From: Limihaloglobus sulfuriphilus
GTDB taxonomy: Bacteria > Planctomycetota > Phycisphaerae > Sedimentisphaerales > Sedimentisphaeraceae
Assembly: GCF_001999965.1 (NCBI RefSeq)
Contig: NZ_CP019646.1
Coordinates: forward strand, 2,418,001-2,482,000
Direction: 5' to 3'
Length of the DNA: 64,000 bases
Below, piece after piece: positions 405-64,000 of the stretch. Position numbers and translations under genes: made by a program. How positions within the stretch are numbered: the first letter of the stretch is position 1; the number at the start of each line of letters is the position of its first letter. The notes under the pieces were generated by a model, which was not told where the DNA came from, did no database searches, and saw nothing but the letters and a program-made list of their open reading frames with translations.

Positions 405-764
405 CTATGGAGGCGTTTTACGCTCATAACGCTTTCTTCTTCTCGCCTTGAAAAGATCTATCCCCTCGAGTATCCATGTAAGCTTTGAAATGTCAACCTC
501 AATTGAGGGTTGTTTTGATGGGTTTTTCAGTTTTTCAAAAGTTCCCTCTTCAAGACGTTTATACCAGATGGCAAAACCTGTCCTGTCCCAGAAGAGTATC
601 TTGCACTTGTCCCCATGCTTGTTGAAGAACACGAACAGATGGCCGCTCAACGGATCCTTGAGCATAAAACTTTCGGTCAGCATCGAGAGCTTATTGAATC
701 CGCATCGCATGTCGGTAGGTTGAGTGTATATGAATATCCTGACCGATGATGGAAGTGTCAGCAT
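405..764 (-). CDS. tnpB: IS66 accessory protein TnpB (IS66 Orf2 family)
   Basis: The 119-residue protein has the typical TnpB layout. An N-terminal strand (VRIFIYTQPTDMRCGFNKL, about 8-26) leads into LSGHLFVFFNKHGDKCKILFWDRTG (about 39-63, given here as a motif region), then a basic C-terminus (KARRRKRYERK). Family knowledge: TnpB is needed with TnpA and TnpC for IS66 transposition, but its biochemical role is unresolved. Its start overlaps the tnpA stop by 7 bases, suggesting translational coupling. Length matches the family norm of about 115-120 residues, so it looks intact. Confidence 0.9.
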   Translation of the reverse strand: MLTLPSSVRIFIYTQPTDMRCGFNKLSMLTESFMLKDPLSGHLFVFFNKHGDKCKILFWDRTGFAIWYKRLEEGTFEKLKNPSKQPSIEVDISKLTWILEGIDLFKARRRKRYERKTPP

Positions 765-60950: not shown

Positions 60951-61493
60951 TCAGTATTCTATCCCCTTTCGGGCGGCGATGCCTTTCTGGAAAGGGTGCT
61001 TTATCTGCCGCATTTCGGATACCAGATCCGCCAGCTCTATCATTTTATCAGAAGCCCCCCTGCCGGTCATGACAATTTCCGTGCCGCGGGCCCTGGTTGT
61101 TATAAGCTTCTTTATATCATCGAATTCCGCAAGCCCTTTCGATTCGCAGAACACGATTTCATCGAGAATTATCATATCATACTCACCCGAGGCCGCCGCG
61201 GTTCTAAGCTCTGTGATAATTGTCTTTATTTCTGCCGCGGTTTTTTTGTAAACCTCCAGGTCGTCTAAAGATGTGAGCATATCCCAGCTTGTTTTCATTG
61301 CCCGCATCTCAATATCAAGGCCGCAATCCGCCGCCGCTCTCCGCTCACTGAGATCAAGGCCGGCCGGCTTCAAGAACTGGTAGATAAGAACCCTGTTGCC
61401 ATTGCCGCACGCACGAAACGCCAGCCCCAGCGCGGCTGTGGTCTTGCCCTTTCCTTGGCCCGTATAGATCTGTACCAGGGATTGTTTTATCAT
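60951..61493 (-). CDS. Cob(I)yrinic acid a,c-diamide adenosyltransferase (CobA/CobO type)
   Basis: The 180-residue protein has the P-loop IYTGQGKGKTTAALGLAFRA (about 9-28). The EYDMIILDEIVFCES segment (about 104-118) and TRARGTEIVMTGRGASDKMI (about 131-150) are typical of the CobO/BtuR family. It transfers the adenosyl group of ATP to cobalt in corrinoids, making adenosylcobalamin. Its start overlaps the panB stop (61490-61493), so they are coupled. No cobalamin riboswitch is visible upstream of the pair. The rest of cobalamin synthesis is not in the window, so salvage is possible. Confidence 0.93.
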   Translation of the reverse strand: MIKQSLVQIYTGQGKGKTTAALGLAFRACGNGNRVLIYQFLKPAGLDLSERRAAADCGLDIEMRAMKTSWDMLTSLDDLEVYKKTAAEIKTIITELRTAAASGEYDMIILDEIVFCESKGLAEFDDIKKLITTRARGTEIVMTGRGASDKMIELADLVSEMRQIKHPFQKGIAARKGIEY

Positions 61494-62365
61494 AAAGCCT
61501 GCTGTTCGCTTTCTTTACGGTTTAATTCCTTATTGAGTTTTTCAAGCTCTTTTGCAGGTATGTGGTACGAGGTGGCATCATCGGGGAACGAGGCGTTTTT
61601 GACCTGCTTATCGTATTCAGTGAGGGCCTCTCTTATGTTTTCGCCTACTCTGCCAAAACATTTTGCGAATTTCGGCAGTTTCGCGCCTTCATTGAGCCCA
61701 AGAACATCGGTTATAACCAGCACCTGCCCGTCACAGTCCGGCCCAGAGCCGCAGCTCAACACCGGGACGCGGCTTCGGCGGGTGATTATCGCGGCTATTT
61801 CACGTGCGGTACCCTCTACAAGAAGCATCCTCGCGCCGGCATCGACCATTCGTTGGGCCAGGTCAATCAGCCCGCGTGCCTGGATCGCCGTGGTGCCCTC
61901 GGCACGGAGCCTGCCGCTGAGCCCTATCGACTGCGGGCGTATCCCTATATGCGCCATAACGGCAATGCCGGCACGGCTGACCGCGCGGACAGTATCGATA
62001 TCATGTTCAGATACCTCGATTTTGACGATATCGGCGCCGGCTTCGGTGATAAACCGCCCGGCGTTGCGGATGGCCTCGGCAATACTGATCTGGTATGAAA
62101 GAAAGGGCATATCCGCAATGACAAGGCTCTCGGGAAGCCCCCTGCGAACCGCCGCGGTCAGTTTAACCATGGTATCCATATCTGCCGGCAGTGTTGTCCG
62201 GTGGCCGAGAATCGCCTGTGCGGCGGAATCTCCGACCATGACTGTATCTATGTCTGTGCCGGCTATAATCGACGCTGTTGTGTAATCATAACATGTTATA
62301 CAGGAAAATTTTTGTTTGTTTTCTTTCAATCTGTATAAATCTGCAAGTGTTTTCTTAGCATTCAT
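61490..62365 (-). CDS. panB: 3-methyl-2-oxobutanoate hydroxymethyltransferase
   Basis: The 291-residue TIM-barrel enzyme has FSCITCYDYTTASIIAGTDI (about 19-38), DTVMVGDSAAQAILGHRTTL (about 39-58, metal-binding Asp), VKIEVSE (about 114-120), HIGIRPQSIG (about 136-145) and MLLVEGTAREIAAIITRRSR (about 178-197, catalytic Glu). It makes ketopantoate from α-ketoisovalerate in pantothenate/CoA synthesis. The start ATG at 62365 is AT-rich upstream. It is first in the panB-cobO-ispD run. Normal length. Confidence 0.95.
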   Translation of the reverse strand: MNAKKTLADLYRLKENKQKFSCITCYDYTTASIIAGTDIDTVMVGDSAAQAILGHRTTLPADMDTMVKLTAAVRRGLPESLVIADMPFLSYQISIAEAIRNAGRFITEAGADIVKIEVSEHDIDTVRAVSRAGIAVMAHIGIRPQSIGLSGRLRAEGTTAIQARGLIDLAQRMVDAGARMLLVEGTAREIAAIITRRSRVPVLSCGSGPDCDGQVLVITDVLGLNEGAKLPKFAKCFGRVGENIREALTEYDKQVKNASFPDDATSYHIPAKELEKLNKELNRKESEQQAL

Positions 62366-62446: not shown

Positions 62447-62475
62447 TTGACATTCCAGGTTGTCTTTTATACCAT
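62447..62475 (+). promoter_or_regulatory. Promoter of a candidate small RNA
   Basis: TTGACA (62447-62452, perfect -35), a 17-base spacer and TACCAT (62470-62475, four of six -10 bases) form a strong σ70-type promoter pointing right. No ORF follows. Confidence 0.65.
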
Positions 62476-62481
62476 AAGCAT

Positions 62482-62541
62482 ACTTTTCATCACCCTCCTC
62501 CGAAGTCAGGTTCCAACACTTGGGACCTGGCTCTTTTTTTT
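62482..62541 (+). ncRNA. Candidate small RNA with C-rich anti-Shine-Dalgarno-like segment
   Basis: Between the promoter and the terminator there is a transcript of about 60 bases with no start codon-led ORF. Its 5' part is unstructured and contains CACCCTCCTCCG (62491-62502), whose complement CGGAGGAGGGTG is a strong Shine-Dalgarno-like sequence. Its 3' part is an 11-bp hairpin plus T-run. This is the layout of small regulatory RNAs that pair with ribosome binding sites through a C-rich loop or tail. It is predicted only; a leftover terminator is the alternative. Confidence 0.55.
62504..62541 (+). terminator. Rho-independent terminator of the candidate small RNA
   Basis: AGTCAGGTTCC (62504-62514) pairs with GGGACCTGGCT (62522-62532), with two G-U pairs, around a seven-base loop. 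It is followed by C and eight T residues (62534-62541). Confidence 0.85.
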
Positions 62542-62736: not shown

Positions 62737-62750
62737 CATATACCAGATAT

Positions 62751-62821
62751 GCGGGTGTGGTTTAGTGGTAGAACGTCAGCTTCCCAAGCTGAAAGTGGGG
62801 GTTCGATTCCCCCCACCCGCA
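62751..62821 (+). tRNA. tRNA-Gly (anticodon CCC)
   Basis: Acceptor GCGGGTG pairs with CACCCGC, discriminator A. The anticodon stem TCAGC/GCTGA encloses TTCCCAA, giving anticodon CCC. The T arm is GGGGG TTCGATT CCCCC. The D arm is TGGTTTAGTGGTAGAACG. CCA is not encoded. It reads GGG glycine codons. Confidence 0.95.
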
Positions 62822-62838
62822 GTAGCCGCTGAATCAGC

Positions 62839-62926: not shown

Positions 62927-64000
62927 TTATTCAACAAACCCTGTTTTATCTATCTCTTGCATTATCCGGGCCGTCTCGGTCAGGGCGGCGATTATTTTCT
63001 GGTAGTGCAGGATATCATCAAAGCTCAGTTCTCTGCCGCAGCGGTCTTTGAGCCATTTCTGCGCGGGCTGGTATCCGCCGATATAAAACTCCCACGCCGA
63101 CAGCGGCACGCCGTCAAAATACTGCTTATCGTTGATCCACACCCTGCCGGTGCCGTTATCCTCGTCTTTCAGCTCAAAGCCGATACTCTTTGCCGTCATC
63201 TTGCGGGTTATAACATTATCCCCGTCAAGAGGATAGCTGGTTATATAATTCTGCGCCTGCTCGCTCTCAAGCAGGTGCACGCGCCGAAGCCGGCCGCCAA
63301 GTTCCGCCAGCCGCCAAAACATATCCGCGTTTTCGGGATACGGCACACGCGGAAAATCGATCTTGAGAAACTCCTTGTACTTCTCGCGGTATGCCGGAGA
63401 GTGCAGAACCGCGTAGATATAGTCTAAGATATCTATCGGGGCAAACGTGCCCTCGCTATCCTCCTTCTCAGCGGTAAAACGCAAACCCAGCTTAGCAGCG
63501 ATCTTATCCACTATCTCCATATTCAGATTCGGTACACGGTCAGAGTCAGTGAACATGCCGTCACAATCGGCGTCGGGATAGAGATACAGAGGGAATATAT
63601 AGTTGTTGTCTAATGAAGATGTAATACTTTTGTCAGTTATCTGTTTTGTAATATAAAAACAAGCTGCATCATTTCTCCTACTACGTGTTGAGCTAATGGC
63701 AAGATTGTTTGAAAGAAGATGTTTCATAGTCTCAGATCGCGGCCTTCCCATAATGCCGCCAGAAAACCCAGTATAAATAGCATATCGCTCATCAAAAGGT
63801 CTATAAGAAATCTTTCTAACTTTTGCATCATTATTTCTAATGTCTTTGATTGCACATTGGTAATTCCAGCCGCGGCTGTTTTTTCTTTTATAAATTATTT
63901 TTAGTTCTTCTTCTTTTTTCTCAATAAAGTCTTGTAATACGCAATTAGAAAGATGCTGTGTAAATTGAACAGCTATATTATCACATTTTGTTTCAATACC
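62927..64000 (-). CDS. Type ISP restriction-modification enzyme, C-terminal part (runs off the right edge)
   Basis: The frame is open from 64000 to the stop at 62927, giving 357 residues; an internal ATG at 63751 is not the true start. The visible part starts inside the methyltransferase/specificity region: ISYRPFDERYAIYTG (about 71-85), the YRPFDxR motif of N6-adenine methyltransferases in this group. The C-terminal specificity domain follows: GRVWINDKQYFDGVPLSAWE (about 284-303), FYIGGYQPAQKWLKDRCGRE (about 304-323), DDILHYQKIIAALTETARIM (about 327-346). It would cut and methylate DNA as one polypeptide. The gene reads toward tRNA-Gly, whose end lies 105 bases away. Confidence 0.88.
   Translation of the reverse strand, partial: GIETKCDNIAVQFTQHLSNCVLQDFIEKKEEELKIIYKRKNSRGWNYQCAIKDIRNNDAKVRKISYRPFDERYAIYTGFSGGIMGRPRSETMKHLLSNNLAISSTRSRRNDAACFYITKQITDKSITSSLDNNYIFPLYLYPDADCDGMFTDSDRVPNLNMEIVDKIAAKLGLRFTAEKEDSEGTFAPIDILDYIYAVLHSPAYREKYKEFLKIDFPRVPYPENADMFWRLAELGGRLRRVHLLESEQAQNYITSYPLDGDNVITRKMTAKSIGFELKDEDNGTGRVWINDKQYFDGVPLSAWEFYIGGYQPAQKWLKDRCGRELSFDDILHYQKIIAALTETARIMQEIDKTGFVE

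Follow-up and report, generated by a model that had tools for sequence, protein, structure and literature searches.

Comparative analysis of the window, a 64,000-nt stretch of Limihaloglobus sulfuriphilus DNA, lends good support to a genuine, previously undescribed RNA-level gene family, one member of which lies at positions 62482–62541. We consider this a real regulatory RNA family because it is almost unchanged across one planctomycete order and is carried by dozens of phages. The RNA probably keeps selected messages from initiating translation. A first-pass annotation had proposed a candidate small RNA with an anti-Shine–Dalgarno (anti-SD) sequence and its own promoter and terminator. The comparative evidence bears out the anti-SD 5′ segment and the terminator, but the promoter is not conserved in the family.

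The locus in L. sulfuriphilus

The element and its neighbours comprise the following features:

62447..62475, + strand: candidate sigma-70-type promoter, TTGACA-17-TACCAT, read from the sequence and by itself not above chance
62447-62452, + strand: −35 TTGACA, followed by a 17-nt spacer
62470-62475, + strand: −10 TACCAT, a 4/6 match to TATAAT
62482..62502, + strand: unpaired 5′ segment and presumed seed, ACTTTTCATCACCCTCCTCCG (RNA, ACUUUUCAUCACCCUCCUCCG; family form, GCUUUUCAUCACCCUCCUCCG), near-invariant in the family alignment, in 68 host copies and in ~66 viral copies
62488..62501, + strand: CAU-(6 nt)-CCUCC core, the complement of GGAGG-(6 nt)-AUG, read directly in the sequence
about 62502..62533, + strand: terminator hairpin with a stem of 13–14 bp and a loop of 3 nt, from the fold and compensatory variation in host and phage copies
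62534..62541, + strand: T8 tract, the 3′ end of the RNA as predicted from the sequence
61490..62365, − strand: panB (ketopantoate hydroxymethyltransferase; Pfam PF02548, E = 1.2e-86), divergent neighbour
62750..62822, + strand: tRNA-Gly(CCC), downstream neighbour outside the element, not conserved beside host copies

The TTGACA, 17-base spacer, near-TATAAT box and eight Ts described in the annotation are all present within 62447–62541. The terminator hairpin is present as well, at 62504–62532, with a stem of 13 pairs rather than 11 and a 3-nt loop. According to folding calculations, the 60-nt RNA (62482–62541) has a free energy of −19.2 kcal/mol (z = −4.8), which 0 of 200 shuffles equalled. 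Promoter-like sites numbered 7 in 3 kb versus 4.6 ± 2.4 in shuffles. It is conservation that places the locus far above chance, through the near-identity of positions 62483–62513 among relatives and the covariance model matches across the order.

The promoter does not share in this conservation. The present copy has a perfect −35, but no conserved sigma-70 motif was found in 67 upstream regions, and TTGACA lies upstream of only 2 of the 67 members. The sigma-70-like promoter stressed in the annotation thus does not appear to be a family feature. Inverted repeats occurred just upstream in excess in a subset of copies (27% vs 12%), and these could be either operators or a 5′ hairpin. At loci L082, L083, L085, L086, L069 and L067, the arms of inverted repeats upstream of the seed change together between relatives.

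Two other observations concern the window. An identical 119-aa ORF that looks like an IS66-type accessory gene occurs in two places in the genome (window 405-764 and L184:4843-5202). At 62930-64000, a gene matching the C-terminal specificity domain of Type ISP restriction enzymes runs off the window edge.

Distribution among hosts and phages

A covariance search of related genomes had been named beforehand as a check, and a lack of conservation in relatives as grounds for abandoning the proposal. A family alignment of 21 copies has the consensus GCTTTTCATCACCCTCCTCCGAAGCCAGRTTC-loop-GRATCTGGCTTTTTT. A covariance model, R1, detected the RNA in 133 of the 161 genomes of the window's order (Sedimentisphaerales), at 1–7 copies each. 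A lack of conservation of the C-rich segment and the hairpin is thus decisively contradicted, although no such conservation was found for the sigma-70-like promoter. Positions 62483–62513 were almost identical in most of 98 relatives, often in multiple copies. Outside the order, the class sample yielded only two weak matches (E ~3e-4 and 8e-4, E-values of this model being rough), and the phylum sample only weak matches, all but two of which were confined to the hairpin part of the model. Among the matches listed for the exact 20-mer, almost all were MAGs titled Planctomycetota, Phycisphaerae or Sedimentisphaerales.

No family in Rfam 15 (4227 families) scored above its gathering threshold for the RNA. 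The matches above threshold were tRNAs only in the window and host loci, and tRNAs plus one hammerhead ribozyme in the phage-type loci. The ribozyme, of Type II and located at L314:3136-3200, shares its phage contig with a copy of the RNA. Full-text searches of open-access papers returned no description of such an RNA in planctomycetes.

In the source genome (3.87 Mb), the element is single-copy at full strength. A search for a second copy in this genome found only a seed-like word lacking a terminator at G000:378816. This word, CTTATTTCATCACCCTCCTC (G000:C1:378816-378830, L118), is enclosed by the inverted repeat CTACCCGTTA/TAACGGGTAG. The RNA is absent from the sister genus (G002/G004) and from most of family f4, and no relic was seen beside panB in relatives without it. 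A home in the Patescibacteria or DPANN archaea was considered and rejected: a Nealsonbacteria MAG has both of its copies on one contig, and two MAGs labelled Aenigmatarchaeota have strong matches on one contig each with weak matches elsewhere. These Nealsonbacteria (CPR) and Aenigmatarchaeota records are probably mobile or mis-binned DNA. In the former (L219, labelled Ca. Nealsonbacteria), the two copies have duplicated promoter-like upstream sequence and flank a REP-type (IS200-like) transposase gene. L246, labelled Aenigmatarchaeota, has its copies in tandem, and a tRNA-like gene lies between copies.

Within the RNA, the seed and the hairpin are conserved in different ways. The segment TCATCACCCTCCTCCGAAG is nearly invariant in 68 host copies, and the CAU-6 nt-CCUCC core is free of insertions and deletions in the great majority of the listed copies, host and viral. 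The stem varies with pairing kept, as in CCAGATTC/GAATCTGG, CCGGGTTCC/GGAGCCCGG and CGGCTGAT/ATCAGCCG. In the 21 host sequences, 99% of stem cells were paired, versus 25–62% after a slide of 1–3 columns. Because most stem pairs never vary, covariation among close host copies is modest; the divergent and phage copies supply the strong evidence of covariation.

Exact or near-exact copies also occur on many IMG/VR contigs, with ~66 distinct copies after de-duplication. Because a control start-site complement gave 54 matches in these contigs, we used the presence of the hairpin as the criterion rather than raw 17-mer counts; the reversed pattern gave 0 matches. In the 65 viral copies analysed, nearly every seed is directly followed by a stable hairpin (mean z −4.2), and sequence downstream of the seed folded at −20.6 kcal/mol versus −8.3 kcal/mol for the matched control start-site-complement 17-mer, which occurs without hairpins. 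These hairpins comprise 54 distinct 8-nt stem arms in the 65 copies; the GAA/UUU base is mostly kept, as is the seed. Moreover, GCT at −6 to −4, outside the searched word, is conserved at 68–82%. Sampled genes on the viral contigs match PHROG integrases and portal, terminase, tail and head proteins. Known phages (INPHARED) yielded only pieces matching at chance level, and known plasmids gave no real match. Host-type CCAGATTC hairpins occur in viral loci L319, L338 and L384, and from the shared RNA, including these hairpins, the phage hosts are presumed to be planctomycetes. On one phage contig, a Mu F-like head protein (L331:7629-9263) has a C-terminal match to an ADP-ribosyltransferase domain. 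At L326/L339 and L246, the RNA lies directly behind a tRNA 3′ end, in an attP-like arrangement in L326/L339.

The 622 kb of viral loci contain 14 tRNA genes, ten of which are tRNA(CAU). Eight of these ten are on the same strand as the RNA, 59–665 nt downstream of it (L336, L338, L357, L378, L385, L319, L330 and L356). Initiator tRNAs characteristically lack a Watson-Crick 1-72 pair. Such a pair is missing from nine of the ten as parsed, which have C-A, C-U, C-C or U-U instead, and the tenth, at L326, has U1-U72 by eye. The phage tRNA(CAU) genes thus appear initiator-like; most have C at position 33.

Proposed mode of action and rival explanations

In its unpaired 5′ segment the RNA complements CGGAGGAGGGUGAUGAAAAGC, comprising GGAGG, six bases, AUG and AAA-A. 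Six bases is a normal distance from SD to start codon. The anti-SD complementarity noted in the annotation is thus real and extends over the whole start site (SD, spacing, AUG and AAAAG) rather than the SD alone. Because the seed complements an ideal start site at normal spacing, we favour antisense occlusion of translation initiation regions. More specifically, the ~60-nt RNA, consisting of an unpaired 5′ seed and then an intrinsic terminator, would act in trans, its seed base-pairing across the ribosome-binding site and start codon in a chosen set of mRNAs and thereby blocking 30S binding. Because the Hfq family was not detected in 40 of 40 relatives, with control genomes positive, this action is expected to be Hfq-independent. 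Phages carrying the same seed with their own terminators would most likely engage the same targets, and their RNA may adjust translation initiation in infection or lysogeny. We consider it reasonably likely that the RNA is a trans-acting, Hfq-independent antisense regulator of ribosome-binding and start sites that is also used by phages.

To look for targets, we examined 304 host and 578 phage start regions, derived from crude gene calls; the genome was sampled as 400 kb of stretches. No clear decisive or conserved target set emerged from this sample. Few of the host starts sampled have GGAGG (4% of SD-bearing genes), and in-register matches to real start sites were only slightly better than those in shifted registers. 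Phage start sites do not evade the RNA: their pairing is no worse than that of host start sites, slightly better in fact, and a simple model in which the RNA spares the phage is therefore unsupported. When 31 genomes were searched for one conserved target, using exact extended complementarity, the non-sRNA matches examined shared no one gene; a few of the matches were further divergent copies of the RNA. A more elaborate proposal is that host and phage share an initiation mimic, one short strand with SD and start-codon complements at natural spacing and so matching both features that the 30S subunit reads on an mRNA. Phages would deploy it alongside an initiator tRNA of their own and so change which messages start translation. 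We regard this proposal as doubtful.

The location of the copies bears on whether the element might instead act in cis on neighbouring genes, in phages and perhaps in hosts, either as a terminator between cistrons or by controlling translation. In phages, a stop codon precedes 36 of the 66 copies at ≤70 nt, some copies lie just ahead of the next start, and 27 of the 66 have a downstream SD and start; in 7 of 65, TGAAARG, which could pair with CUUUUCA, occurs shortly past the hairpin. Such positions make a cis role in phages conceivable. By contrast, according to neighbour and gene-start calls made with a simple ORF caller, only 8 of the 68 host copies closely follow a co-directional gene. Roughly half of the examined host copies are divergent from panB (neighbour cluster c0; 34 loci, some redundant, from several families of the order), and extra copies adjoin hisS, phosphoribosyltransferases, two-component genes and others, as named by eye. 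The downstream genes vary in identity and strand and are often in opposite orientation, as would not be expected if the element were the cis leader of one fixed gene. Nor would a pure terminator need a near-invariant 20-nt 5′ part, and we consider a cis element unlikely. The host copies correspond to what is expected of trans-encoded bacterial sRNAs, namely a free-standing gene with a conserved terminator hairpin.

The seed also invites explanations other than mRNA pairing. It could imitate the 3′ tail of 16S rRNA (GAUCACCUCC...) and, as a decoy, titrate a factor that binds this tail (Era, S1 or some processing enzyme, for instance). Era recognises GAUCACCUCC, the seed AUCACC-CUCCU differs from the 16S tail AUCACCUCCU by little more than one extra C, and an invariance of ~20 nt, which phages keep too, exceeds that of a typical sRNA seed. 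We nevertheless consider a decoy quite unlikely: the motif lacks the leading G besides having the extra C. Moreover, mRNA pairing, unlike 16S mimicry, accounts for its start-codon complement CAU, for the 6 nt between CAU and CCUCC, and for the CUUUU that complements AAAAG. Read on the reverse strand, nearly every copy presents a perfect SD-ATG arrangement, CGGAGGAGGGTGATGAAAAG, as though a small gene started there. That gene is scarcely credible and is contradicted by its reading frames, which end randomly, at a median of 13 codons and in 9 of 66 cases after three, without a conserved peptide; moreover, it is the plus strand that has the covarying T-tract terminator. If the feature were not a functional RNA but mobile DNA, either RAYT/REP-like or a phage attachment site, this would suit the multiple copies in many genomes, the proximity of phage copies to integrases, the pair flanking the transposase gene in L219 and the copies behind tRNA 3′ ends in L326/L339/L246. 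Yet none of the other loci examined contains a relative of the L219 transposase, so RAYT mobility, seen on one contig only, was rejected. Hairpins that stay paired as their sequence changes, together with their T tracts, and the synteny with panB across families also make a mobile element very improbable.

Antisense pairing in this group of bacteria would be of interest since small-RNA regulation is hardly described in planctomycetes, whose genomes in this order appear to lack Hfq. An order-wide, often multi-copy RNA with an anti-start-site seed can be probed in any cultivable member. The phage copies, with the same seed, interchangeable terminators and repeated proximity to initiator-like tRNA genes, offer a handle on the contest between phage and bacterium over translation initiation.

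Relation to known anti-SD RNAs

The alpha-r14/NfeR1 'cuckoo' RNAs of Alphaproteobacteria have an ultraconserved, unpaired anti-SD motif, CCUCCUCCC, and diverging stems (PMC10746234, PMC3927594). Each of their three hairpins has such a motif in its unpaired region, and NfeR1 of Sinorhizobium, described as independent of Hfq, has been shown to act in the antisense mode favoured here, by pairing at a translation initiation region (PMC10746234). The planctomycete RNA likewise has a near-invariant anti-SD sequence in an unpaired region beside a diverging stem and, as for NfeR1, no Hfq requirement is expected, Hfq being undetected in the 40 relatives. In contrast to the 'cuckoo' RNAs, it has one 5′ seed and one terminator hairpin rather than three motif-bearing hairpins. 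Its motif is CAUCACCCUCCUCC (CCCUCCUCCG) rather than CCUCCUCCC and extends to the start-codon complement. Its lineage is that of planctomycetes and their presumed phages, and no Rfam or sequence relation was found.

Other RNAs are more distant. AbcR1/AbcR2, CyaR and RNAIII-type sRNAs have at least partial anti-SD loops (PMC3927594), and AbcR1/2 have been contrasted with the Hfq-independent NfeR1 (PMC10746234). Their anti-SD sequence pairs with ribosome-binding sites, as is proposed for the planctomycete RNA, but they differ from it in size, structure and lineage. The Bacillus sRNA ncr982 (RF02454) shares CCUCCU ahead of a terminator hairpin; its match stayed at 17.5 bits, below the gathering score of 50 (E = 3.3), and by this test it is not a relative. 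The wider class of phage- and prophage-encoded sRNAs likewise consists of regulatory RNAs on phage genomes. To our knowledge, no known phage sRNA family combines a host-identical anti-start-site seed with exchangeable terminators beside initiator-like tRNA genes.

Overall, the alpha-r14/NfeR1 'cuckoo' RNAs are the closest functional analogue and are not homologous by any test applied here. The unusual features of the planctomycete RNA are its extended complement to start codon plus SD and its wide carriage by phages with swapped terminators, several beside initiator-like tRNAs. Because it is nearest to the anti-SD RNAs, yet lacks two of their defining features and any homology to them, we classify it as a new family within a functional class that is already known.
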